This document shows, piece after piece, positions 3,362 through 36,685 of a stretch of 36,685 nt of DNA. Numbering within the stretch: position 1 is the first letter of the stretch; every line of letters begins with the position of its first letter. This DNA comes from Bacteroidota bacterium (GTDB lineage Bacteria > Bacteroidota > Ignavibacteria > UBA10030 > BY39), in the NCBI GenBank assembly GCA_030682385.1, contig JAUXOG010000130.1:1-36685 (forward strand). The letters are read 5' to 3'. The notes beneath the pieces were generated by a model. The model saw nothing but the letters and a program-made list of their open reading frames with translations, was not told the DNA's origin and searched no databases. Position numbers and translations under genes: made by a program.

Positions 3362-5047
3362 ATGGATAAAGCACAAGCCCGCCAGATAATTAAAGATGTA
3401 TTTGAAAATCCTTTCGATAAGAGTAGTTTCACAAGTTTTATTCGAAATCTCTTAAACTCTTTTGAAGATGCGCCCCTCAGTTATAAAGGGAATATCATTT
3501 ACGATGCTTTCGATCAGCACATCAGCACTATGGAACGAATCGGAAAATATTCTGATAATGAGTTCAAGATTGATATTCTTATTGTAAAATTGAAGAAAGA
3601 AACTTCAGTAGAGCGTGCGCGGACTATGCAGCGTAATTTTATCGCTCGTTATCTGAACGGCAGCCGTGGCGGCGAGTTGAAAGATGCAGCCCTCGTTGCT
3701 TTTATCTCACCAAATGAGGAAGATTGGCGATTTTCTTTAGTGAAAATGGATTATAAATTTGAAGAAACAAAATCCAGAAAAATTAAAGTAAGAGAAACAT
3801 TTACTCCGGCTCGACGCTGGTCTTTCCTTGTGGGTTCTAACGAAAATAGCCATACCGCACAGCAGCAGCTTGTTCCGCTTCTCCAGGATACCGAAAATAA
3901 TCCCACGCTCGCACGAATCGAGCAAGCATTCAACATTGAATCGGTAACAAAAGAGTTCTATCAAAAATACAAAGAGCTCTACCTAAACCTCAAAGACAAC
4001 TGCACTGAAAAGGAGTTAAAACGTTCCAAGCAATTCAGAGAAGAGCTGAACAGCAAAGGCATAGATGAAGTAAGCTTTACCAAAAAACTTCTTGGTCAGA
4101 TTGTGTTTCTCTACTTTATACAAAAGAAGGGCTGGCTCGGCGTTCCGAAAGATAAAACGTGGGGTAACGGCGATAGAAGATATTTACGCACACTGCTCGA
4201 TAAAGCAATCGCATCCAAGCAAAACTTCTACGCCGATTATTTAAAGTATTTATTTTACAATGCTCTTGCAACAGAGCACCGCGGCAGCAGCGATCCGAGT
4301 TATTATAAAAAGTTAGATTGTAAAATTCCGTTCCTCAACGGTGGATTGTTCGAAGCCGACTACGATTGGGAGAAAACTGACATTAACATTCCCAACAACT
4401 TCTTCACGAATAAAAACAAAACGAAGGAAGGCGATGAAGGCGACGGCATACTCGATGTATTTGACCGATACAATTTTACCGTAAAAGAAGACGAGCCGCT
4501 TGAGAAAGAAGTCGCTGTTGACCCTGAGATGCTCGGCAAGGTTTTCGAGAACTTGTTGGAAGTGAAAGACCGCAAAAGCAAAGGCGCATATTATACTCCT
4601 CGTGAGATTGTGCATTACATGTGCCAGGAATCGCTTATAAATTATTTGGATGTAACGCTCAACTCCGATCCGGCATCGTACATAAAGATTGGCGATGAAC
4701 AGACCGATGCGTTCGGTAACACAACGAAGAAGGGACAGTTGGACCTCGAAGCAAAAACCGGTGAAGTAGTAAAAGTGCCGAAGAGCGACATAGAAGAATT
4801 TATCCGCCACGGTATTGCCGCGCTTGAAAACGATGTCCGTGTAGAAAGCAAAGGCAAAGAAACCGACACATATTTTTACCAGATACCGCTAAGCATACGC
4901 GCACACGCGGCAGAGCTTGATGAAGCATTAGAAACGATACGTATATGCGACCCGGCGATTGGCTCAGGAGCATTCCCCGTTGGTATGATGACAGAGATAG
5001 TAAAAGCCCGACAAGTTCTCACCACCTATTTACCCGAAGCGTATTAA
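3362..5047 (+). CDS. Eco57I-type DNA methyltransferase/restriction protein, N-terminal half
   Basis: These 561 residues match the N-terminal half of Eco57I-like adenine methyltransferases. A helical region carries SKGAYYTPREIVHYM near residues 404-418, the usual lead-in to the catalytic domain. Motif I, DPAIGSGAFP, which binds S-adenosylmethionine, is near 529-538. The reading stops at TAA 5045-5047, soon after motif I and before motifs II-IV. The same frame continues without another stop as NPPY-containing protein to 6754, so this is one gene cut by a nonsense codon. The N-terminal segment around residues 65-90 might hold a degenerate nuclease core, but I cannot identify catalytic residues with confidence. 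On its own this half would bind cofactor poorly or not at all. Confidence 0.85.
   Translation: MDKAQARQIIKDVFENPFDKSSFTSFIRNLLNSFEDAPLSYKGNIIYDAFDQHISTMERIGKYSDNEFKIDILIVKLKKETSVERARTMQRNFIARYLNGSRGGELKDAALVAFISPNEEDWRFSLVKMDYKFEETKSRKIKVRETFTPARRWSFLVGSNENSHTAQQQLVPLLQDTENNPTLARIEQAFNIESVTKEFYQKYKELYLNLKDNCTEKELKRSKQFREELNSKGIDEVSFTKKLLGQIVFLYFIQKKGWLGVPKDKTWGNGDRRYLRTLLDKAIASKQNFYADYLKYLFYNALATEHRGSSDPSYYKKLDCKIPFLNGGLFEADYDWEKTDINIPNNFFTNKNKTKEGDEGDGILDVFDRYNFTVKEDEPLEKEVAVDPEMLGKVFENLLEVKDRKSKGAYYTPREIVHYMCQESLINYLDVTLNSDPASYIKIGDEQTDAFGNTTKKGQLDLEAKTGEVVKVPKSDIEEFIRHGIAALENDVRVESKGKETDTYFYQIPLSIRAHAAELDEALETIRICDPAIGSGAFPVGMMTEIVKARQVLTTYLPEAY
5045..5047 (+). other. In-frame TAA interrupting the Eco57I-type gene
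   Basis: The codons before this TAA read ...LPEAY and those after read KQSRQSFNQENQGTDIYDF, then KRHCIQECIYGVDID, all in one frame. The downstream part is recognisable family sequence leading into motif II. The intervening stretch is Q/N-rich, and a CAA codon here would need only one C-to-T change to become TAA. No frameshift is needed to join the halves. Confidence 0.85.
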
Positions 5048-5137
5048 AAGCAATCAAGGCAATCATTTAATCAAGAGAATCAAGGTACAGACATTTACGA
5101 TTTTAAGCGGCACTGCATACAGGAGTGTATTTACGGC

Positions 5138-6754
5138 GTGGATATTGACCACTCTGCAATTGATATTGCCAAACTTCGTTTGTGGCTCTCGCTCGTTGTT
5201 GACGAAGAAGATTTTTACAAGATAAAACCGCTGCCTAACTTAGATTATAAAATTGTATGTGGAAATTCTCTAATTGGTTACCCGTATGCACCGCAAGGGT
5301 TGGAAGCTATTGAAAAGCTCAAGAAAATATTCTTTGAATTAACCGAACATAATGAAAAGGAGAAATATCGGAAAAGAATAAATGAGGCAATTGAGAAATT
5401 GTTGAAAAATACAGAGAAGACATTGGGATATAAAGTTGATTTTGGCTTTAAGATTCATTTCAGTGAAGTGTTCCATGGAAAAAATGGATTTGATATTGTT
5501 ATTGCAAATCCACCGTATGTTAGGCAGGAGGACATCAAAGAATATAAACTAAAGCTCCAGAAATCCGGATATAAAGTGTACAACTCTACTTCTGATCTTT
5601 ACACTTATTTTTATGAAGTTTCTTACAATATTCTTGCACTTCGTGGATTCTCTTGCTTCATTACGAGCAATAAATGGATGCGAGCTAAGTACGGCGAGAA
5701 ACTACGAAACTTTTTCAAGGCAAAAACTAAAGTACTGAACTTAATAGATTTTGGCGGACATAAAGTATTTGAAGCAACAGTAGATACCAATATTATTCTT
5801 TTTCAGAAAACCCAACCTTCACAGGAATACAAATTACCCTTTGTAAACATTGAAACTGATTTCTCTGGAGAGGGGCTTGATGAGTATTTAAATATAAAAC
5901 AACAGAGCATTAAACAAAGCGACCTAAATGACTCTGGCTGGACGCTCGCTGATGATAAGGTGCTGACGCTCAAAAAGAAGATCGAACAAATCGGCACACC
6001 GCTTAAGGATTGGGATATTAATATTTATCGTGGCATAACAACAGGATTTAACGAGGCATTTATCATAGATACCCCGACTAAAGAGCGACTTTGCAAAGAA
6101 GACCCAAAATCTGTTGAAATATTAAAGCCGATATTACGAGGACGCGATATTAACAAATATTTTTATACTTGGTCTGGGTATTGGATTATTTATAGTTATA
6201 CAGGTATAAAAATAGAAAAATACCCAGCGGTATTAAACCACCAGAAACAATATCGAAAAGAATTAGAACAAGTATGGGAAGCAAAACACGGTAAAAAACA
6301 ATGGTATGAATTAAGGGGTTGTGATTATTATGAAGAGTTTGAAAAGGAAAAGATTGTGTGGCAAGAAATAGTTAGAGAGCCAAGTTTTGCTTATGATATT
6401 AAGAATATCTATTGTGAAGCGACAACTTTCTTAATGACAGGAAAAGGTTTGAAATATTTAATTGCAATATTAAACTCAAAACCTGTAACATTTTTCTTCA
6501 AGCAATTTTATGCAGGTGGTGGTCTTGGGGAAAGTGGCTATAGATATAAAAAAGCATTTTTAGAACGACTTCCAATCCCCAAAATCTCTGAATCTGAACA
6601 AAAATCATTTATTGACCTTGTTAATAAAATCCTTGAGGCGAAGAAGAAAAACCCAACATCGGATACAACCGCATTAGAGCGCGAGATAGATGTAATGGTG
6701 TATAAACTGTACGGTTTGACTGAAGAAGAAATAAAAATTATTGAGAGTAATTAA
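5138..6754 (+). CDS. Eco57I-type DNA methyltransferase, C-terminal half
   Basis: This half contains the substrate and specificity side of an Eco57I-like N6-adenine methyltransferase. The first residues, GVDIDHSAIDIAKLRLWLS, are motif II. Catalytic NPPY (motif IV) is at residues 124-127 in VIANPPYVRQ. A target-recognition region follows, and the family's closing LEREIDVMVYKLYGLT is near the end. The first usable start after the TAA is GTG 5138, with CAGGAG at 5120-5125, but family-like residues (IYDFKRHCIQECIYG) lie upstream in frame, so a restart product would be truncated. The stop is one base before the TrlF ATG. It is probably inactive unless the stop is read through or the two halves assemble. 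Confidence 0.85.
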   Translation: MDIDHSAIDIAKLRLWLSLVVDEEDFYKIKPLPNLDYKIVCGNSLIGYPYAPQGLEAIEKLKKIFFELTEHNEKEKYRKRINEAIEKLLKNTEKTLGYKVDFGFKIHFSEVFHGKNGFDIVIANPPYVRQEDIKEYKLKLQKSGYKVYNSTSDLYTYFYEVSYNILALRGFSCFITSNKWMRAKYGEKLRNFFKAKTKVLNLIDFGGHKVFEATVDTNIILFQKTQPSQEYKLPFVNIETDFSGEGLDEYLNIKQQSIKQSDLNDSGWTLADDKVLTLKKKIEQIGTPLKDWDINIYRGITTGFNEAFIIDTPTKERLCKEDPKSVEILKPILRGRDINKYFYTWSGYWIIYSYTGIKIEKYPAVLNHQKQYRKELEQVWEAKHGKKQWYELRGCDYYEEFEKEKIVWQEIVREPSFAYDIKNIYCEATTFLMTGKGLKYLIAILNSKPVTFFFKQFYAGGGLGESGYRYKKAFLERLPIPKISESEQKSFIDLVNKILEAKKKNPTSDTTALEREIDVMVYKLYGLTEEEIKIIESN

Positions 6755-6755
6755 T

Positions 6756-9440
6756 ATGACTAATACTGGTGGTTTAAAATTTAAAAAGTTTGATCTTCAC
6801 ATCCATACTCCAGCTTCAGAAGATTACAAAGATAAAAAGGCCACAGCCGAAGATATTGTCAATCAATCTATAAATAAAGGGTTAGCTGGCATCGCCATCA
6901 CTGATCATCAAACTGGCGACTGGATAGACAGTATAAAAGAAGCGGCCAAAGGAAAAGATTTAATTGTTTTTCCCGGGGTAGAACTTAAGGTTCATGGCGG
7001 TGAAGAAGGTATTCACCTGGTCATTATTTTTGATGTTGATAAAAATACAGAGCATGTAACTGCTTTTTTAAACAGATTGGAGACCTACCAGCACAAAGGA
7101 AAAACCTCAATAACCGATAAAATTGTTATTGAAGTAGCCAAAGAACTACAACAATACGACAAAGATGCAATTTTAATTTTAGCTCACTGCGACTCCACTT
7201 TTGGAGCTGACTCCGATATGCGAGGCGAACAGAGGAGTAATATCTTTAAACCCGAATGGATTTGCCTGCTTGGCGCTGAGGCCAGCGAAACTAATTTTTT
7301 GGACGCAGACAAAAAGCAAAAACATACCAGAATTGTAGATTTATTTGATGGAGGCTTTCAAGATTTTCACAAAAAAATACTCGGTGTCTATCAAGCATCT
7401 GACGCGCACAGTTTAGAAGAGATTTGTTCAAAATACACTTATTTTAAAGTTGATGATCCAATAACCATTGAGGACATAAGACAATCCTTGATAGATAGAG
7501 ACACCAGAATGCGTCAGTCTTTTGAATATAAAGAGTTTACTTATCCTCACATTGTTAGTCTAAAAATCACAAGTGGTTTTTTGGCTGATCAAGAATTTTC
7601 TTTTCATGAAGGATTGAATAGCATCTTGGGTGCTAAGGGCTCAGGTAAATCTTTAGTTATTGAATTTTTGCGTTTTTGTTTAAATCAACAGCCAAATAAT
7701 CAGGAAATTTTATCTGACCATAAAGACAAGCTGGACAAATGTCTTAAAATTCACGGCGAGATTGAGGTTGTTTTTATGGATGAATCTGGCAAAAAGTATA
7801 TGATAAAAAGAGTGTTAAACCCGGCCGAAGCCAACCCTGTTACTATTATTGATTCATCTGACAATTCTGAGAAAAATTTCCAAGTTGAACAGGTGTTCCC
7901 GGTTTTATTTTTAAGTCAGAACGAAATTATCAAAATTGCTGAAGACAAAACTGGTGCAAGCCAAAGACGATTTATTGACCAGTTTTTTGATTTTTATAAA
8001 CATCAACAGGAAATTGAAAAATTAAACAATGATTTAAAAGAAGTTGACCAAAAAGTGGCTGATGTTTTGGAGGCTCATCTAAAAACGCTTGATCTAAAAA
8101 AGAAAATATCCACTCATAAGGAAGAAATTGAAAAGCTGGGCCGGCAGATTCAAAACACGGTTTTTGCCGAATATTCTAAAAAAGAAAAGGTCGGACAAGC
8201 CCTGCAAAGCCAGCTTGATTTTGTTGATTCATTGAGGCAGATGCTTTTAAGTTCCCAGTCCGAATACAAAGACATGACTCTGCCGGAAATTGAAGACCGA
8301 GAGACCAGCCAGAATCCGGCTGTTAAACGCTCGGCTGATGTAGTTTCTAAAATTTTGGATGAGGCCAAGAAAAGTTTTGAAAATACTATCAACTATTTGG
8401 ATGAGCAAAAGAAAACTATTAAGCAGGAAATTGCTGATTGGCAGTCGTCTTTCAAGCCGATTAAAACCAAGTATGACGCAGTAGTTAAAGAATCTGGCGG
8501 CACACAGGTGGCTTTGGATCAAAAACGCAAACTATTAAATACAAACCTTGCTAATCTTGAACGAGAGCTTACTAAACATCAGGGCAAAGCCCAGCAAGCT
8601 CAAGCTATTGGTGCACGAAGAGACGAAATTATCCGCCAGTTGGATAATGCTTACAAAGAATTTTTCAAAGCCAGAAAAAATCGCTGTGACTATTTTACTC
8701 AAAACTCCAACGGAGCGTTGCAAGTGTCGATTAGAGAGCGAGAAGATAAAACCGCTTTTAAAGATAATTTATTGAAATTTAAGAGAGGGTCATGGTTGAA
8801 GGACGAAGAGATTGATATTATTTCCCAAAAAATTAGTCCGCGCGATTTTATTGACAATTTGCTTCGTTATGCATGGTCGAACAGGATTGGGCAGAAGTTT
8901 ATAAAAGACATTACCGACAAAACTGGTATCAAACTCGAAAACATAGAAAAACTCGCCCAACATCTTTTGGATGAATATGATATGAAAGAAATTCTTGTGC
9001 TTCTTTATACATCAGTTCCCGAAGACGTGCCAACCATAAAATATAAGGTGGGAACTGAATTTAAAGCATTAAATGAATTATCTGTTGGCCAGAAAGCCGT
9101 TGCATTACTAATTATTGCCTTAAGTGATGGCTCTTTTCCAATAGTTATTGATCAGCCAGAAGATTCACTTGACCTCCGATCCATCTGGGACGATGTTTGT
9201 TGTAAATTAAGGTATACAAAAGATCAAAGGCAGTTTATATTTACTACCCACAATTCCTCGGTAGCTGTGGCCTCTGACAGCGATAAATTCACAATTCTAG
9301 AAGCGGATGCCAATCATGGATCAGTTTTATATTCCGGGTCGATTAATCGCAAAGAAATAAAGAAAGAAGTTATTAATTACTTAGAAGGCGGACGTGATAC
9401 TTACAAGCAAAAGAGACAAAAGTATAATATCCAAGATTAA
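6756..9440 (+). CDS. TrlF-like protein: PHP domain fused to SMC/RecN-type ATPase
   Basis: The N-terminal ~250 residues form a PHP phosphoesterase domain: HIH at 15-17, ITDHQ, ILAHCD and QASDAH supply metal-binding His/Asp. An ABC/SMC-type ATPase follows, with Walker A GAKGSGKS near 291-298, a Q-loop in FLSQNE, and a long coiled coil at about 415-640. The signature LSVGQK is near 775, Walker B with IVIDQPEDSLD near 796, and the H-loop is FTTHNS. This is the layout of the TrlF family. It probably senses or processes nucleic acid, and the PHP domain may hydrolyse phosphodiesters. ATG 6756 is preferred over the upstream TTG 6741 because GAGAG sits at correct spacing and the previous gene ends at 6754. 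It is the last intact gene of the operon, consistent with a defence role by association. Confidence 0.85.
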   Translation: MTNTGGLKFKKFDLHIHTPASEDYKDKKATAEDIVNQSINKGLAGIAITDHQTGDWIDSIKEAAKGKDLIVFPGVELKVHGGEEGIHLVIIFDVDKNTEHVTAFLNRLETYQHKGKTSITDKIVIEVAKELQQYDKDAILILAHCDSTFGADSDMRGEQRSNIFKPEWICLLGAEASETNFLDADKKQKHTRIVDLFDGGFQDFHKKILGVYQASDAHSLEEICSKYTYFKVDDPITIEDIRQSLIDRDTRMRQSFEYKEFTYPHIVSLKITSGFLADQEFSFHEGLNSILGAKGSGKSLVIEFLRFCLNQQPNNQEILSDHKDKLDKCLKIHGEIEVVFMDESGKKYMIKRVLNPAEANPVTIIDSSDNSEKNFQVEQVFPVLFLSQNEIIKIAEDKTGASQRRFIDQFFDFYKHQQEIEKLNNDLKEVDQKVADVLEAHLKTLDLKKKISTHKEEIEKLGRQIQNTVFAEYSKKEKVGQALQSQLDFVDSLRQMLLSSQSEYKDMTLPEIEDRETSQNPAVKRSADVVSKILDEAKKSFENTINYLDEQKKTIKQEIADWQSSFKPIKTKYDAVVKESGGTQVALDQKRKLLNTNLANLERELTKHQGKAQQAQAIGARRDEIIRQLDNAYKEFFKARKNRCDYFTQNSNGALQVSIREREDKTAFKDNLLKFKRGSWLKDEEIDIISQKISPRDFIDNLLRYAWSNRIGQKFIKDITDKTGIKLENIEKLAQHLLDEYDMKEILVLLYTSVPEDVPTIKYKVGTEFKALNELSVGQKAVALLIIALSDGSFPIVIDQPEDSLDLRSIWDDVCCKLRYTKDQRQFIFTTHNSSVAVASDSDKFTILEADANHGSVLYSGSINRKEIKKEVINYLEGGRDTYKQKRQKYNIQD

Positions 9441-29995: not shown

Positions 29996-30012
29996 AATTA
30001 TTTGTTTAGTTT

Positions 30013-31086
30013 CTATCCTTTTAACAAATCGAGCAATGGTTTGTTGATGAATAAATGATACTTGCCTACCCTGCTCTCCTTTAAAAACTTTCCTTTGGCA
30101 AGCTCAGTCAGGTATCGGCTTGCGGTTCTGTAGTTTACACCCAATCGTTTTCCCAAATTGACTGGAGAAATAATAGGTGATGCAAATAACGCTTCAACCA
30201 AATCGGAAGAATAAATCTTTTTATGCTTTTCCTTAACTCTTTCTCTCGACTTCTGTAGCAATGCTATAAGTTTTAATAAAACATCTTTAGTCTCTTTTGC
30301 CTGCGAATGAAATCCCTTCAGCATGTACAAGATGAACTCGTTCCACTTTTCATCCGAGCTAACGGCACGTAACAATCTGTAATACTCTGCGCGGTTCTTG
30401 TTGATGTATCCGCTGATATATAAAATCGGAAGGTTAAGAAGTTTTTGCTCGATGAGATAAAGTACAATCAATATTCTACCAGCTCTGCCATTTCCGTCAT
30501 CAAACGGATGGATTGCTTCGAATTGATAATGAGCAATCGCACACTTTATGAGCGGGTCGATTGAATCATCGGTATGGAGAAAGTTTTCCCAGTTCCCGAC
30601 CAAGCGTGAAAGCTGGTGTACTGGTGGTGGAGTATAGTGTATTTCACCAGTCGCGATATTCGAGATGGCATTCTGGTGCGTCCGGTATGAGTTCTTTGTT
30701 TCTGGGAGAAGTCTTTTGTGTATCCCAAGAACGAGACGGGTTGAAATTGGAAGTTTTTTTAGCTGGTCAAATCCCCAATAGACTGCTTCACGGTATCGCA
30801 ATACTTCTTTGTCGGGTTGTTGCTGTTCAGCTTCGGGGAAGAGCTGCATTTGTAATACCTGCTCGACTGTTGTATTGATATTCTCAATGCTTGAACTTGC
30901 AACCGATTCTTTGAGAACAGTTGGAGAAAGTAAGAGCATCGGGTTCGGCAACGAATGGGAATAACCGTTGAGTTCTCCCAACTCCGTTCTTGCTTTCAGC
31001 ATGAGGTCGATAAACCGCTCGTGTCTGAAGTTCAGTAGAGGTGGTAGCAGCGGTAAGTTATATGGTATTTTTGGATTGAAAGGCAT
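30013..31086 (-). CDS. Fic-family AMP transferase with C-terminal winged helix
   Basis: This 357-residue Fic protein has the active-site loop HPFDDGNGRAGR at 193-204, with all catalytic residues intact. The inhibitory helix motif [S/T]xxxE[G/N] is seen as SSSIEN (Ser64, Glu68, Asn69), placing it in the class with an N-terminal inhibitory segment, so activity is probably autoinhibited. The C-terminal ~90 residues look like a winged helix (NLGKRLGVNYRTASRYLTEL) that may bind its own promoter. It transfers AMP to hydroxyl groups of target proteins; the target is unknown. AAAGGA lies before the start. It stands alone, convergent with the PAS pseudogene and bracketed by direct repeats. Confidence 0.9.
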   Translation of the reverse strand: MPFNPKIPYNLPLLPPLLNFRHERFIDLMLKARTELGELNGYSHSLPNPMLLLSPTVLKESVASSSIENINTTVEQVLQMQLFPEAEQQQPDKEVLRYREAVYWGFDQLKKLPISTRLVLGIHKRLLPETKNSYRTHQNAISNIATGEIHYTPPPVHQLSRLVGNWENFLHTDDSIDPLIKCAIAHYQFEAIHPFDDGNGRAGRILIVLYLIEQKLLNLPILYISGYINKNRAEYYRLLRAVSSDEKWNEFILYMLKGFHSQAKETKDVLLKLIALLQKSRERVKEKHKKIYSSDLVEALFASPIISPVNLGKRLGVNYRTASRYLTELAKGKFLKESRVGKYHLFINKPLLDLLKG

Positions 31087-31135
31087 AGATTTATCCTTTA
31101 TGTTGTTTGATTTTTATATATACCAAATATACGAA

Positions 31136-31180
31136 ATATGTTACATATCGCAAACTATATGGTACACCGCGTTACATATC
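31136..31180 (-). promoter_or_regulatory. Candidate Fic operator repeats
   Basis: GTTACATATC occurs at 31140-31149 and 31171-31180, 31 bases apart (about three helical turns). The first copy lies within the palindrome ATATGTTACATAT. The position, 50-95 bases before the Fic start, suits binding by the Fic winged helix or another regulator. Confidence 0.45.
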
Positions 31181-31228
31181 CAATTTTCAGATGTCTCTAA
31201 TTCTTAATTAACCACCCGTCCGCCGAAG

Positions 31229-31246
31229 TCCCGAAAGCATTCGGGA
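31229..31246. repeat. Palindromic element copy 5
   Basis: TCCCGAAAGCATTCGGGA. The surrounding 31228-31262 is identical to 29925-29959, giving direct repeats on both sides of the Fic gene. Confidence 0.85.
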
Positions 31247-31383
31247 CGTAGGAGGATTGACCATTTATCCAATGATTCAATGATATGAAACCTTCTGCTT
31301 GATTCTTAATCTGTCCTATCTTATCTTACAATTGTTTCATTAACGGACTAAGTGCCTGAGTGGTAAATATTGAAGGTAAAACT

Positions 31384-32688
31384 ATGAACACAAAACTACT
31401 ACAAAAAAAAGAGCGGTGTATCCGGTCAAGCGTTAAATATTTTTCCGAACGAATGCTCTCCATGTTTCCTGTTTTCGTTATACTTTTTTCCTTGTGCAAT
31501 AATCCACATGCTCAAGCACAAACGCAAATAAAAATTGGCGTTCTTGCTAATAGGGGAACTGAAGAGGCACTAATCCGCTGGAAACCAACCGCCAATTATT
31601 TAACGGCAGAAATTCCACCGCACTCTTTTGCAATCGTTCCATTAGGTTACGATTCGCTGCATAAAGCTGTTGAGTCTGAAGCGGTGGATTTTGTAATCAC
31701 TAATCCTTCAAACTATGTAGAACTTGAATCAGCATACGGTACAACAAGAATTGCTACAATGAAAACGCTGTTTCATGGCAACCCATTAAATATGTACGGG
31801 GCTGTGATTTTTACAAAGGCGGACAGAAATGATATAACGGATTTGAGCGACCTTAAAGGAAAAAAGTTTATGGCAGTTGAAAAAGGATCTTTAGGCGGCT
31901 GGCAAAGCGTATGGCGCGAGTTTAATGATAAGGGAATAGACCCCTTCAGCGATTTTGCCGAACTAGAATTTACAGGTTTTCCGCACGACCTTGTAGTTCT
32001 TGGCGTAAGGGATGGCAAAGCTGATGCCGGCACTATGCGTACCGGTATTCTTGAAAGCATGGCAGCCGAAGGAAAGATAAACCTTTCGGATTTTCGCATC
32101 CTGAACCCGCAGGTGCGTGAAGATTTTCCGCAACTTCTGAGCACACGCTTATATCCTGAATGGGCGTTTGCAAAAACGAAGCATACGCCGGATGAATTAG
32201 CTCAGCAAGTAGTTATTGCACTCCTGAAATTGTCTTATGAAAGCGAGGCTGCAAGAGCTGCAGCAATCGAGGGTTGGACAGTTCCTCTTGACTATATGGC
32301 GGTTCATGAACTTATGATGGAATTGCGGATTGGACACTATAAAAATTATGGTAAATTGACTCTTGAGGACGCGCCCAATAAGTACTGGTATTTAATTGCC
32401 CTATTGATAATTGTAATAATTATCGGTGCGTTTATTGTTATTTATATGAAGAAAACTAACATCAAGCTTTATCAGGCAAAAACTGAAATTGAGAAGGAAC
32501 GCAGTAGTCTTGAGGTTCGTGTAACGGAACGGACACACGAGCTACAAAACCGAATCGAAGAACCCCGCCGCTGGCATAATGTAACGTTAGACCGAGAAGA
32601 CCGTGTCCGTGAACTTAAGAAGGAAGTGAATGAATTATTGCAACAACTTGGTAAAGACAATAAATATAGTAACACCTCACTTCAGTGA
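31384..32688 (+). CDS. PhnD-like periplasmic sensor with transmembrane helix; probably the 5' half of a split sensor kinase
   Basis: A signal sequence (SMFPVFVILFSLCNNPHAQA) leads a PhnD-like periplasmic ligand domain (IKIGVLANRGTEEALIRWKP, DFVITNPSNYVELESAYG, GGWQSVWREF). One membrane helix follows near residues 335-355 and then a coiled coil ending DREDRVRELKKEVNELLQQL. That last segment is the usual linker before PAS and kinase domains in phosphonate-type sensor kinases. The protein stops at TSLQ, which is encoded by the first REP hairpin at 32673. GTG 31360 is possible, but ATG 31384 has GAAGG at good spacing. The missing kinase part is probably the gene at 33479. Confidence 0.82.
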   Translation: MNTKLLQKKERCIRSSVKYFSERMLSMFPVFVILFSLCNNPHAQAQTQIKIGVLANRGTEEALIRWKPTANYLTAEIPPHSFAIVPLGYDSLHKAVESEAVDFVITNPSNYVELESAYGTTRIATMKTLFHGNPLNMYGAVIFTKADRNDITDLSDLKGKKFMAVEKGSLGGWQSVWREFNDKGIDPFSDFAELEFTGFPHDLVVLGVRDGKADAGTMRTGILESMAAEGKINLSDFRILNPQVREDFPQLLSTRLYPEWAFAKTKHTPDELAQQVVIALLKLSYESEAARAAAIEGWTVPLDYMAVHELMMELRIGHYKNYGKLTLEDAPNKYWYLIALLIIVIIIGAFIVIYMKKTNIKLYQAKTEIEKERSSLEVRVTERTHELQNRIEEPRRWHNVTLDREDRVRELKKEVNELLQQLGKDNKYSNTSLQ

Positions 32689-32772
32689 GGTGCAAAAAAC
32701 CGAAAATTAACACCTCGATTTATCGAGGTGAAATAAAAACAAAACTAAACCAATAAACTGTTTTAACAGTTT
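32673..32772. repeat. REP hairpin array, left of the Y1 transposase
   Basis: Three perfect hairpins: CACCTCACTTCAGTGAGGTG (32673-32692), CACCTCGATTTATCGAGGTG (32711-32730) and AAACTGTTTTAACAGTTT (32755-32772). The last two recur unchanged on the right side of the transposase gene. The first hairpin supplies the stop of the upstream sensor gene. Confidence 0.9.
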
Positions 32773-32802
32773 ACAACAAGATTTAAGAAAGGAGAAAAAC
32801 TT

Positions 32803-33252
32803 ATGTCCTTACACTCATACACAAAATGCTGGCTGCATCTTGTGTGGAGTACGCTCAGCAAAGAAAAACTTCTGAATACTCTTGAAGTTAGGAATGCGGT
32901 CTCCTCGTACATATCAGATTATTCAAAAGAGAATAACATTTATATGAAGATTAACCATGTTAATCCCGAACACGTTCATGCGCTTATAGACTTACCGACG
33001 AATATAGCCATCGAAAATGTTTTTAAGCTATTCAAGGGTAGCTCATCTCACTGGATAAATGAAAACAACTTAATACGAACTAAGTTCGCATGGGGTCGCG
33101 GTTACGGTGCATTTTCCGTATCAGAATCAGATGTCGAAAGAGTCGTTCAGTATATTAAGAATCAAGATGAGCACCACCGGAAAATAATTTTTGCAGAAGA
33201 ATTTCATAAATTTATTGAAGCTTATGGATTGAAGTACATCAAAGAAGATTAA
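32803..33252 (+). CDS. IS200-like Y1/HUH transposase (REP-associated type)
   Basis: This 149-residue single-strand DNA transposase of the TnpA/RAYT class has the HUH metal motif His57-Val-His59 in EHVHALID, the candidate catalytic Tyr117 in VVQYIKNQDEHH, and the conserved FKGSSSHWIN and WGRGYGAFSVS. A strong AAAGGAG precedes the ATG. Hairpin arrays lie on both sides, as expected for REP-associated transposases that recognise folded single-stranded hairpins. No accessory tnpB is present. The protein looks intact. Confidence 0.9.
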   Translation: MSLHSYTKCWLHLVWSTLSKEKLLNTLEVRNAVSSYISDYSKENNIYMKINHVNPEHVHALIDLPTNIAIENVFKLFKGSSSHWINENNLIRTKFAWGRGYGAFSVSESDVERVVQYIKNQDEHHRKIIFAEEFHKFIEAYGLKYIKED

Positions 33253-33456
33253 ACCGTTAAAACGGTTGGCTATAAGATAACTTAGTTTCATAACACCTGA
33301 CTGAAGTCAGGTGTTAATTCTAAACTGATAGGTTATAGATATTAAACTGAGGTTAGGGTGTAATGTAAACGCTGTCGTTAACCAAAAATTAACACCTCGA
33401 TTTATCGAGGTGTCTGTAGAAGTGGAAAAACAACGCTAAACTGTTTTAACAGTTTA
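33252..33456. repeat. REP hairpin array, right of the Y1 transposase
   Basis: Four perfect hairpins: AACCGTTAAAACGGTT (33252-33267), an 11-bp-arm hairpin with CACCTGACT arms (33292-33315), CACCTCGATTTATCGAGGTG (33393-33412) and AAACTGTTTTAACAGTTT (33438-33455). The last two match the left array. Arms differ between copies with matching changes on both strands. Confidence 0.9.
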
Positions 33457-33478
33457 CTAATATTAAGAAGCTCAAACT

Positions 33479-35179
33479 ATGAACACACAACAACTACTAC
33501 AAGAATCTGAGCGGTCGCGGAAAGCGCTGTTAAGCATTTTAGAAGATCAAAAACGCATCGAAGGAAATCTCCGCAAGAGCGAAGCATACAACCGCCTCCT
33601 CTTCAACTCATCACCTATCGGCTTGGTGCTTTGCAAAATGGACGGCTCGCTCGTCGATGTGAATCCTGCATACGCTAATCTTTTAGGTCGGACTGTCGAA
33701 GAGACTTTAAAGCTTTCCTATTGGGACATCACACCCAAGAAATACGAAGAACAAGAGAAACAGCAATTAAAATCGTTGGACGAAACCGGCAGATACGGTT
33801 CCTATGAAAAAGAATACATACACAAAGACGGGCATCTCGTTCCCGTCCGATTGCATGGATTGATAATAGAGAGAGAAGGTGAAAAATTTATCTGGTCTAG
33901 TGTTGAAGACATCACCGAGCGCAATCGTGCTGAAGAAGAAATCAAACTCACAAACAAAGAACTCGAAACAATAAACAAGATTATCGCATCCGCAACGAGT
34001 ACCTTTGACCTGAAATTGATACTCGATAAAGTTATGGATGAAGCGCTAAACGTCGTTGGGCTTGAAGGCGGAACTGTATGCCTCATCAACCCCGACAATA
34101 CTTTTGAGCTTGCAGTAGAAAAAGGAGCTACACAGGAAACAATTGAAGATCTCACTAACAATAAGATCAAAGTCGGTGATTGCCTCTGCGGCAATTGCGC
34201 CAAAGAATGTAAGCCGCTGATATTGCAGACGAAGGAAGATGTGTTAGAATACGCTACACGCGAAGTGCTTCGCGGAGAAGACATACGCTTCCATGCCGCG
34301 TTTCCGTTTGTCATCGGAGAAAAATGCGTTGGCGTTCTTTGTGTTTTCACCCGCACCGATAAGAAACCTTTAGAAAGAAACCTGAAGTTGTTGGAATCAA
34401 TAGTAGCACAAACCGCAATCGCAATCGAGAATTCAAGGTTGTATGAGGAGGTTAAAAAACATACACTGCAACTTGAGCATATCGTTTCGGAGAGAACCGC
34501 AGAACTCCAATCAGCAAACAAAGAGCTTGAAGCATTTTCATATTCGGTCTCGCACGACTTGCGTGCACCGCTCCGTGCGATAGATGGTTTCAGTCTTGCT
34601 CTGCTTGAGGATTATTCGGATAAACTTGATAATGAAGGTAAACATCATTTACAACGGGTTAGGAACGGGGCAACTGAAATGGCACAACTCATTGATGATT
34701 TATTGAATCTATCGCGAATATCCCGCCGTGAACTAATACGAGGAAGTGTCGATATGAGTAAAATCGTTAAATCTATAACAGACAAACTGAACTCTTCAGA
34801 AACGGACCGTAAAGCGGTGTTTAATATTGCGGATAATATTCAAGCAGCGGGCGACAGTAATTTGCTTAAAATAGTTATGGAAAATCTCTTAAATAACGCA
34901 TGGAAATTTACCAGTAAAAGGAAAAATGTAAGTATTGAATTCGGAATTTTGGAAAAAGAAGGTAAAACAGTATATTACATAAAAGATAATGGAGTCGGTT
35001 TTGATATGAAGTATGCTGATAAACTATTTAATCCATTCCAGCGGTTGCACAGAAAAGAGGATTATCCCGGCACGGGTATTGGTCTGGCAACAGTCCGGCG
35101 GATAATCTTGAAACACGGCGGCAGCATCTGGGCTGAAAGCGAGTTAGGAAAAGGTGCGGCGTTTTATTTCACGCTGTGA
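33479..35179 (+). CDS. PAS-GAF histidine kinase; probably the 3' half of the split sensor kinase
   Basis: This 566-residue kinase has a helical start (QESERSRKALLSILEDQKRI) followed by PAS (about 40-145), GAF (about 165-300, with a Cys-rich CLCGNCAKEC insert), a coiled coil, HisKA with His359 in SVSHDLRAPLRAIDGF, and an ATPase domain with NLLNNAWKFT, DNGVGFD and GTGIGLATV. No membrane segment is present. The N-terminal helix matches the part that normally follows the NELLQQLG linker of PhnD-type sensor kinases, so the REP/Y1 block upstream probably split one gene. The frames of the halves differ, and this part now has its own ATG. It may still be a working soluble kinase feeding the response regulators downstream. 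Confidence 0.87.
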   Translation: MNTQQLLQESERSRKALLSILEDQKRIEGNLRKSEAYNRLLFNSSPIGLVLCKMDGSLVDVNPAYANLLGRTVEETLKLSYWDITPKKYEEQEKQQLKSLDETGRYGSYEKEYIHKDGHLVPVRLHGLIIEREGEKFIWSSVEDITERNRAEEEIKLTNKELETINKIIASATSTFDLKLILDKVMDEALNVVGLEGGTVCLINPDNTFELAVEKGATQETIEDLTNNKIKVGDCLCGNCAKECKPLILQTKEDVLEYATREVLRGEDIRFHAAFPFVIGEKCVGVLCVFTRTDKKPLERNLKLLESIVAQTAIAIENSRLYEEVKKHTLQLEHIVSERTAELQSANKELEAFSYSVSHDLRAPLRAIDGFSLALLEDYSDKLDNEGKHHLQRVRNGATEMAQLIDDLLNLSRISRRELIRGSVDMSKIVKSITDKLNSSETDRKAVFNIADNIQAAGDSNLLKIVMENLLNNAWKFTSKRKNVSIEFGILEKEGKTVYYIKDNGVGFDMKYADKLFNPFQRLHRKEDYPGTGIGLATVRRIILKHGGSIWAESELGKGAAFYFTL

Positions 35180-35181
35180 GC

Positions 35182-35237
35182 AGTAGGTAGTATGGAGTAG
35201 GTAGTATGGAGTAAGTAGTATGGAGTAAGTAGTATGT
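35182..35237. repeat. 4 x 14-bp tandem repeat, left of the S23 gene
   Basis: The unit AGTAGGTAGTATGG is repeated four times; the last two carry AGTAAGTAGTATGG/T. It begins just after the kinase stop. Inverted relatives (TACTACATACTA...) follow the S23 gene. Confidence 0.88.
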
Positions 35238-35259
35238 AGAATAATTAAAGGATAAAGGC

Positions 35260-35652
35260 TTGGAAACTAAAAAAGAGTACCACGGTTTTCGGGATTTGAT
35301 TGTTTTTCAACTATCCTATAAATTGGCTTTAGAGATTTTTAATATTACCAAAACGTTTCCAAAGGAAGAGAAATACTCGTTAGTTGACCAAATCAGAAGA
35401 TCGTCGCGTTCGGTGCCTACAAACATTGCAGAAGCGTGGTATCATCGCAAATATCCTAAATCTTTTGTCAGCAAACTAATTGATTGTGCCGGTGAAGCAG
35501 GAGAAACAGAAGTCTGGATTGATTTTTCATATGACCATAATTATATAGAAAATGAAACACAAATACATTTACTAGAAAAATATAAAGAAGTTCATAAAAT
35601 GTTAAGTAGTATGATTTCGCAACCTGAAAAATTTTGCCGAACCCATTACTAA
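35260..35652 (+). CDS. Four-helix-bundle protein (S23/IVS family)
   Basis: This 130-residue protein is of the family first seen in 23S rRNA intervening sequences (FRDLIVFQLSYKLALEIFNI, FPKEEKYSLVDQIRRSSRSV, NIAEAWYHRKYP, LIDCAGEAGETEVWIDFSYD). Start TTG 35260 is preceded by AAAGGA. Its function is unknown; stand-alone chromosomal copies are common. It lies between direct tandem repeats and their inverted partners and separates two genes of a two-component cluster, so it looks like an inserted cassette rather than part of the signalling operon. Confidence 0.88.
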   Translation: METKKEYHGFRDLIVFQLSYKLALEIFNITKTFPKEEKYSLVDQIRRSSRSVPTNIAEAWYHRKYPKSFVSKLIDCAGEAGETEVWIDFSYDHNYIENETQIHLLEKYKEVHKMLSSMISQPEKFCRTHY

Positions 35653-35680
35653 ATACTACATACTAACTTCTACTTACTAA
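35653..35680. repeat. Right inverted repeat of the S23 cassette
   Basis: TACTACATACTAAC...TACTTACTA is the reverse complement of the GTAGTATG/TAGTAAGT units on the left of the S23 gene. Confidence 0.75.
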
Positions 35681-35707
35681 GCCAAGCTTTTACTAAGGAA
35701 CAAAAAC

Positions 35708-36124
35708 ATGGAAGAAAAAATAATCCTACTAATCGAAGACAACCCCGACGATATCGATTTGACGTTGAGGGCTTTCAAAAAAAACAACATCGTCAATAAA
35801 ATAATCATCGCCCGCGACGGCGAAGAAGCACTCGAACATCTTTTTGGAGCGAATGCAGTTAAACCGACTCTTGTTCTTCTCGATTTAAAATTACCAAAAA
35901 TCGACGGCTTGGAAGTGCTAAGAAAAATCCGTTCTAACGAAAAAACAAAACTCTATCCTGTCGTAGTACTAACTTCCTCAACAGAACAGAGCGACTTAAA
36001 AGCGGCTTACGAATTGGGCAGCAACAGCTACATCAAAAAACCGGTGAACTTTGAAGTTTTCCTCGAAGCCGTGCATAAATTAGGCGTGTACTGGCTGATA
36101 CTGAACGAGCCACCGGTGGAATGA
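35708..36124 (+). CDS. Response regulator (Rcp1-like single receiver)
   Basis: This 138-residue receiver has LIEDNPDDIDLTLRAFKK at the start, Asp59 in VLLDLKLPKIDGLEVL, Thr in VLTSS and Lys in YIKKP. The EDNPDD and GSNSYIKKP features are typical of the Rcp1-like group that pairs with PAS/GAF or phytochrome-like kinases. It is the likely phosphate acceptor of the kinase at 33479, now separated from it by the S23 cassette. Confidence 0.9.
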   Translation: MEEKIILLIEDNPDDIDLTLRAFKKNNIVNKIIIARDGEEALEHLFGANAVKPTLVLLDLKLPKIDGLEVLRKIRSNEKTKLYPVVVLTSSTEQSDLKAAYELGSNSYIKKPVNFEVFLEAVHKLGVYWLILNEPPVE

Positions 36125-36138
36125 GCAAGACAGATAAC

Positions 36139-36217
36139 AGTAGGTAGTAAGTAGTATGATGACGCAGCCCGAAAAATTTTGCCATACGAGATACTACATA
36201 CTACATACTACATACTT
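36139..36217. repeat. Deleted S23-cassette derivative
   Basis: A left-type repeat (CAGTAGGTAGTAAGTAGTATG) is fused directly to codons like the S23 C-terminus (SMMTQPEKFCHTRY against SSMISQPEKFCRTHY), then to three TACTACATAC units. It is an internal-deletion relic with both ends retained and the body lost. Confidence 0.85.
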
Positions 36218-36232
36218 TAAACAAGACTAACT

Positions 36233-36685
36233 ATGAACAAACTACTCAAAGTTCTTATCGTAGAAGACTCAGAAGATGATGTACAGCTTCTTCTTCGCGA
36301 ATTAAAAAAAGGCGGCTACAAACCGACACACAAGCGTGTCGAGACTGCCACCGCTATGAAAAAAGCCCTTAAAGAGCATTGGGATATAATTATTTCAGAT
36401 TATAAAATGCCAAAATTTAGCGGACCCGACGCTTTAAGAGTTTTACATGCCTCAAACCTCGATATTCCCTTTATTATCGTATCAGGCAGTGTTGGCGAAG
36501 ACGCAGCGGTTGAGACGCTGAAAGAAGGCGCCCACGACTTTATAACGAAAATGAATCTCGCACGTTTGGTGCCGGCAATAGAACGGGAGATAGAAGAATT
36601 CAAAATACGGAAAGCTCACAAACAAGCCGAAGAGGCTTTGCAACAAAGCGAACAGCGTTATCAAACGCTTGCACTAATGTCGCCC
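36233..36685 (+). CDS. Response regulator with following PAS domain, cut by window edge
   Basis: The receiver domain starts MNKLLKVLIVEDSEDD, with Asp56 in IISDYKMPKFSGPDAL and Lys in DFITKMN. A coiled linker (IEREIEEFKIRKAHKQAEEA) and the beginning of a PAS domain (SEQRYQTLALMSP) follow. The frame is open at the last base (151 codons visible), so the gene continues, most likely into a PAS-containing kinase or output domain. It belongs to the same signalling cluster as the kinase and the single receiver upstream. Confidence 0.88.
   Translation, partial: MNKLLKVLIVEDSEDDVQLLLRELKKGGYKPTHKRVETATAMKKALKEHWDIIISDYKMPKFSGPDALRVLHASNLDIPFIIVSGSVGEDAAVETLKEGAHDFITKMNLARLVPAIEREIEEFKIRKAHKQAEEALQQSEQRYQTLALMSP

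Follow-up and report, generated by a model that had tools for sequence, protein, structure and literature searches.

An S23 gene between inverted heptamer arrays and its neighbouring deletion relic: members of a proposed class of mobile intercistronic cassettes

The 36,685-nt contig JAUXOG010000130.1 of a Bacteroidota bacterium (assembly GCA_030682385.1; the whole contig is called the window below) carries an S23 gene, encoding a protein of the 23S rRNA intervening sequence (IVS) family, recorded to date chiefly in inserts within ribosomal RNA genes, between the genes of a histidine kinase and a response regulator. We consider it probable that the window holds one member and one deletion relic of a widespread, IVS-like and intercistronic class of mobile S23 cassettes of about 0.5 kb. 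Such a cassette would, on balance, be an S23/PF05635 gene bounded by inverted degenerate 7-nt arrays and placed in sense between adjacent genes of a host operon. Comparison among genomes demonstrates the anatomy of the cassettes, their generality, the bias to sense and operon positions, the purifying selection on the gene, and decay by microhomology deletions between array and gene that leave relics. The cassettes are transferred between genera and, together with their heptamer class, across phyla.

The S23 open reading frame (ORF) of the window matches PF05635 with 112.5 bits (curated cut-off 33.8, E=1.4e-32) and TIGR02436 with 108 bits (cut-off 24), and 2RLD and 2GSC are its relatives in the PDB. 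Weaker matches were obtained to bAvd (PF22296, E=3e-8) and to DivGenRetAVD (31 bits, below its cut-off of 80). The units of the left arm are, in order, AGTAGGTAGTATGG AGTAGGTAGTATGG AGTAAGTAGTATGG AGTAAGTAGTATGTAG, with the GTAGTATG-type starts spaced 14 nt. The histidine kinase, S23 and response regulator genes all lie on the + strand. The cassette is thus located between protein genes and not within a 23S rRNA gene; no rRNA was found in 30000-36685, and Rfam gave nothing above the gathering score.

Table 1. Features around the S23 cassette of the window
Feature	Position	Strand	Basis or remark
Single-gene Y1 transposase, IS200/REP-associated type	32803-33252 (unit 32669-33460)		about 2 kb upstream of cassette
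Host gene, PAS/GAF histidine kinase, 5' of cassette	33479-35179	+	profile match
Left arm, tandem GTAGTATG-type heptamer array	35182-35239	+	directly 3' of histidine kinase stop codon
S23 / 23S rRNA-intervening-sequence protein gene, four helix bundle, 130 aa, TTG start	35260-35652	+	PF05635, TIGR02436
In-gene motif TAAGTAGTATG, same as left-array units, putative deletion joint	35603-35613	+	sequence identity
Right arm, inverted heptamer array, CATACTA/CTTACTA units (ATACTACATACTAACTTCTACTTACTA)	35652-35679	+	overlaps S23 stop codon; inverted repeat I1
Host gene, response regulator, between cassette and relic	35708-36124	+	PF00072
Relic, left-array units joined to last S23 codons and right array, S23 body missing	36138-36219	+	one gene downstream of cassette

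The main set for the arms consisted of 104 S23 loci from about 15 phyla, in which the 150-nt upstream flank was compared with the reverse complement of the downstream flank. The inverted match has a mean score of 18.9, compared with 10.9 in direct orientation and 11.1 between flanks of different loci. For 580 control ORFs taken from these loci the mean is 10.6, a strong difference (p=9e-32); the flanks match as inverted repeats in 51% of S23 loci and in 3% of control ORFs. The signal is kept after dereplication at 50% identity (28 loci, p=3.5e-9). It was replicated in independent sets of 36 cyanobacterial loci (25.3 vs 11.3, p=5e-13), 14 Bacteroidota loci (20.3 vs 12.3) and seven loci of the same-genus genome G001 (19.4 vs 12.1). 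A 7-nt period with harmonics (lag-7 peak) is seen in the S23 flanks only, on both sides, and the repeat unit is specific to the locus. The arms are therefore intergenic tandem 7-nt units, as in the heptameric short tandemly repeated repetitive (STRR) sequences. Their polarity is fixed: the upstream flank is G-rich in 95% of S23 loci and 41% of controls, and GC skew is +0.40 upstream and -0.23 (C-rich) downstream, with 0.00/0.00 in controls. Both neighbours are co-oriented with the cassette in 84/97 cases (87%), against 164/247 control genes. The RNA duplex energy of the arms is -52 kcal/mol class-wide and -37 kcal/mol for cross-locus pairs. Arm similarity also follows the S23 lineage, with 14.67 observed against 12.27 +- 0.55 in a within-phylum permutation; across phyla, it is shared by 39% of S23 pairs at least 60% identical and by 4-5% of those less than 40% identical.

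A total of 10 PF05635 matches were found in the source genome. The first-pass annotation had proposed to look for GTAGTATG flanks on other S23 copies and took their absence as refutation. None of the other S23 genes of this genome has such flanks, whereas S23 relatives from other phyla do have GTAGTATG-like arms. The literal refutation is outweighed by a generality which that annotation missed, namely that each S23 copy has short-repeat arms of its own. In the source genome most of the other S23 genes lie between adjacent genes with their own inverted arms, e.g. GGTGAGC/GCTCAAT, CGGTGAAAC/GTTTCACCG and ATCATAAATC-type, and we take the neighbours, from our own reading of the translations, to be spmA/spmB, nuoH/nuoI, ABC1/ABC2, moxR/DUF58 and nrnA/pepA. 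The S23 family is present in 49 of 60 relatives of this genome, with at most 16 copies per genome. In a scan of species genomes, 70 S23 relatives were obtained at 33-73% identity, from Bacteroidota, Desulfobacterota, Chloroflexota, Auribacterota, Omnitrophota, Verrucomicrobiota, Cyanobacteria, an archaeon and others. No S23 genes were found on phages, and plasmids carry only relatives below 60% identity, mostly cyanobacterial.

Orthologous junctions were compared in four family members, and the presence or absence of the cassette varies at all eight testable sites. At truly empty sites of G002 and G004, the host genes overlap by 4 nt (spmA/spmB) or lie 4-6 nt apart (ABC1/ABC2 and moxR/DUF58). 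Since these sites are without arms, the arms are most likely part of the insert. At moxR/DUF58, genome G003 (L138) possesses an S23-less inverted repeat, GCGTCTCTGCG / CGCAGAGAACGC, of a different repeat class; the source genome and G001 have S23 cassettes there with repeat units unlike this hairpin. The L003 site in G001 contains a broken S23 gene. At a Draconibacterium junction S23 is present in two species, and D. orientale has only left-arm units and a short filler. Where related cassettes occupy unrelated sites, homology ends at the arms, e.g. in L090/L092 of one genome and in L035/L039. The nrnA/pepA cassettes of the source genome and G003, which belong to different genera, are 87-89% identical, and their flanking genes 70-76%. 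The dN/dS of the S23 gene is 0.03-0.19, which denotes purifying selection. At L056 (Draconibacterium sediminis, 4001-8214) and L060, three S23 genes occur within about 4 kb at successive junctions of one gene cluster, and D. orientale has two S23 genes in the matching stretch.

The relic beside the window cassette matches the S23 gene (36148-36210 vs 35603-35665, family D2) with 83% identity over 63 nt and E=6e-12 in within-genome BLAST. Together with the coordinates, this bears out the initial description of an S23 cassette between GTAGTATG-type arrays with a relic at its side. Read in the frame of the S23 gene, the relic gives VSSMMTQPEKFCHTRYY, with C-terminal codons SSMMTQPEKFCHTRYY, compared with LSSMISQPEKFCRTHY and the stop in the gene. 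The same description had the left repeat joined to the S23 C-terminal codons through a motif common to array and gene, and this motif is confirmed as the 11-nt TAAGTAGTATG, present in the left array, in the gene and in the relic. It is the longest identity between array and gene in the window; codon shuffles average 5.8 nt and none of 500 reaches 11, so the identity is more than chance. Such a match is peculiar to the window and not general among loci. A general derivation of the arms from the S23 gene was rejected, as array and gene share 8.0 nt at their own locus and 7.7 nt across loci.

A second relic was discovered in G001, at the ABC1/ABC2 junction, where the source genome and G003 hold intact cassettes. 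It consists of the left arm, a ribosome-binding site and about 10 codons, joined at ACTTTTAA to the right arm. With one joint exactly on the 11-nt identity and a second independent relic, the proposed internal deletion at microhomology holds, and the deletion model is now the simplest account of the relic. The deletion would have affected an S23 gene of the window subfamily and joined a unit of its left array to the matching motif inside the gene. The relic had been called the adjacent gene's own derivative, which is not established because the two differ by 17% and another member of the subfamily scores nearly as well: the coding core has a score of 18 against the adjacent gene and 17 against an S23 gene of a Bacteroidales genome. 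The relic arms pair at -19.5 kcal/mol and represent inverted terminal sequences without a transposase gene, as in miniature inverted-repeat transposable elements (MITEs). However, the proposed search for more relics, successful in G001, gave no other copy in the source genome, where BLAST found, besides the gene itself, bare heptamer arrays only. The term "MITE-like" is therefore unsupported, since several near-identical dispersed copies are not found in the source genome, and the candidate of a multicopy MITE was rejected.

Heptamer arrays away from S23 genes were measured as density in sampled genome stretches. No strict period-7 array was found in 579 kb of eight S23-negative genomes, whereas 786 kb of S23-positive genomes from that order contain 20; with a looser setting the numbers are 2 and 23. 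Repeat periods other than 7 display no comparable excess in S23-positive genomes, save the harmonic 14. Among cyanobacteria, two of the three array-bearing S23-negative exceptions carry the related bAvd family. In the bAvd loci examined the gene precedes a reverse transcriptase-like gene, judged by eye, and inverted heptamer arms were seen in none of the five bAvd loci. Solo arrays have an inverted partner in 14% of cases and no sense bias, as expected of remnants but equally of independent origin.

The copy number of S23 correlates with that of Y1_Tnp (rho=0.73, p=5e-11, phylogeny ignored), and Y1_Tnp is present in 43/49 vs 2/11 genomes in the S23 comparison. The correlations with DDE_Tnp_1 (rho 0.25), PIN (0.17) and RVT_1 (-0.01) are much lower. 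Dependence on reverse transcriptases or diversity-generating retroelements (DGRs) was rejected because most S23-rich genomes lack RVT_1: of 16 genomes that have 10 or more S23 genes, 12 are without it. The Y1 gene of the window is flanked by the perfect palindromes CACCTCACTTCAGTGAGGTG, CACCTCGATTTATCGAGGTG and AAACTGTTTTAACAGTTT, two of them on both sides, and constitutes with them a unit like those of repetitive extragenic palindromic (REP) sequences and REP-associated tyrosine transposases (RAYT), likewise between co-oriented genes. No relatives of this gene were found by tblastn in the sampled S23 loci.

The cassette would be read from the host operon transcript. In the mRNA its arms may pair and form a stem whose loop contains the S23 ORF, as suggested by the architecture common with the 23S rRNA IVS (PMC4990558); the duplex energies favour such pairing in general, not specifically in the window. 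RNase III could excise the stem, limiting harm to the operon, and the Avd-like S23 protein may bind the stem or the arrays. Mobility probably depends on an activity supplied in trans. The best candidate, to which the copy-number correlation points, would be a single-strand transposase of the Y1/HUH type with the arm hairpin as its substrate, and PF00078 reverse transcriptases would not be required.

Several observations weigh against a general mobile cassette or its presence in the window. Clear inverted arms are missing from roughly one quarter to one third of S23 loci. Class-wide, the S23 ORF lies in a loop bounded by terminal inverted repeats, but the window arms are among the weaker ones (inverted-alignment score 16) and their RNA duplex energy is no better than that of cross-locus pairs. 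Neither a target-site duplication nor an exact insertion event could be resolved, the empty sites compared being too diverged. Some S23-negative cyanobacteria also have arrays: the count is 5 in 269 kb for the S23-negative and 37 in 400 kb for the S23-positive ones, so that the link between arrays and S23 is strong and not absolute. The Y1 correlation does not imply action on the cassettes and is a lead, not a proof.

The arrays could instead be independent, STRR-like simple repeats of the host that expand by slippage or are dispersed in some other way, with S23 inserting into them or tolerated nearby and the arms not belonging to the element. The arrays of some S23-negative cyanobacteria, the mostly unpaired and unbiased solo arrays, and the record of heptamer repeats with no link to S23 (PMC4679880) speak for this, which we nevertheless regard as rather unlikely: insertion into one array would give direct flanks, and inverted ones of fixed polarity dominate. 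The heptamer unit moreover follows the S23 lineage across phyla, and S23-negative relatives are nearly array-free. Strong purifying selection and the sense position within operons would also suit cassettes kept as host regulators, the arms being operon processing or attenuation hairpins, S23 an RNA-binding autoregulator, and movement incidental gene transfer. Presence or absence at every compared site, broken and deleted copies within one genus, unrelated host operons and several unrelated S23 genes per genome make this improbable.

Retro-mobility, in which the cassette would move through its RNA and S23 would take the part of Avd beside a reverse transcriptase supplied in trans, draws on the kinship between S23 and Avd in the matches given above (PMC10053308), and an RNA intermediate would fit the sense bias. 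The RVT_1 counts largely refute it for PF00078-type reverse transcriptases, and we hold it to be very improbable.

The mobile S23 cassette resembles several known systems and differs from each. The 23S rRNA IVS with S23 ORF, as in Coxiella burnetii, is thought to be selfish or of transposon origin (PMC4990558). It shares with the cassettes the S23 family, the ORF in the loop of terminal inverted repeats, the sense position in the host transcript and a size of about 0.4-0.5 kb (PMC4990558), whereas the cassettes lie between operon protein genes and not in rRNA helices, have 7-nt-unit arms varying with the locus, and reach many copies per genome. A relation of the class to the 23S rRNA IVS is the best reading. 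Heptamer repeats of the TAACTGA type occur in Beggiatoaceae, Cyanobacteria and Bacteroidetes (PMC4679880). These repeats and the heptameric STRR of cyanobacteria are likewise intergenic 7-nt-unit arrays, found in scattered phyla and with suspected horizontal spread; unlike them, described as direct arrays that lack an associated gene, the S23 arms are paired and inverted with fixed polarity around a gene. REP/RAYT systems also comprise small palindromic intergenic sequences, Y1 gene number tracks S23 number, and the window has a Y1 gene 2 kb upstream. However, the cassette encodes S23 only, without a transposase, and its arms are long heptamer arrays rather than REP palindromes of 20-40 nt. 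S23 is homologous to the four-helix-bundle DGR accessory protein Avd, but the window has no reverse transcriptase or template/variable repeats (the source genome has one sub-cut-off RVT_1 fragment elsewhere), and the examined bAvd loci are without inverted arms. Like a MITE, the relic is a deletion derivative keeping both ends of a larger cassette; unlike MITEs, it is single copy, with no sign of movement and no target duplication resolved.

S23 proteins, rRNA IVSs and heptamer repeats are each known separately, and their joining was not found in the open-access PMC papers searched. To our knowledge, the origin of the heptameric repeats between genes of cyanobacteria and other phyla is not known, despite decades on record, and we know of no function of S23/IVP proteins outside ribosomal RNA inserts. 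The locus-specific, inverted and polarity-fixed pairing of S23 with arrays, and the near confinement of arrays to S23-bearing genomes, link both puzzles and make them testable in cultured hosts (Flavobacterium, Draconibacterium, Nostoc). They also account for small "four helix bundle protein" genes between otherwise adjacent or overlapping operon genes. A more far-reaching proposal, which we offer tentatively and with less than even confidence, is that S23 cassettes may be a distinct, undescribed selfish intercistronic class across Bacteria and at least one archaeon, in which S23 and a trans-acting Y1 would create or spread inverted arrays persisting as STRRs. If true, the 23S rRNA IVS would represent this class at one special site of insertion.

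In one cyanobacterium (L348, 18660-19396), the inverted arrays GGTGACA / CCCCTGT enclose a 195-aa gene that was not identified as S23, possibly other cargo, or chance. At L190 (4045) and L209 (8351), protein genes apparently contain heptamer arrays close to a C-terminal sorting-like stretch (..VTLKVYDMLG), and arrays may therefore also be read as coding sequence.
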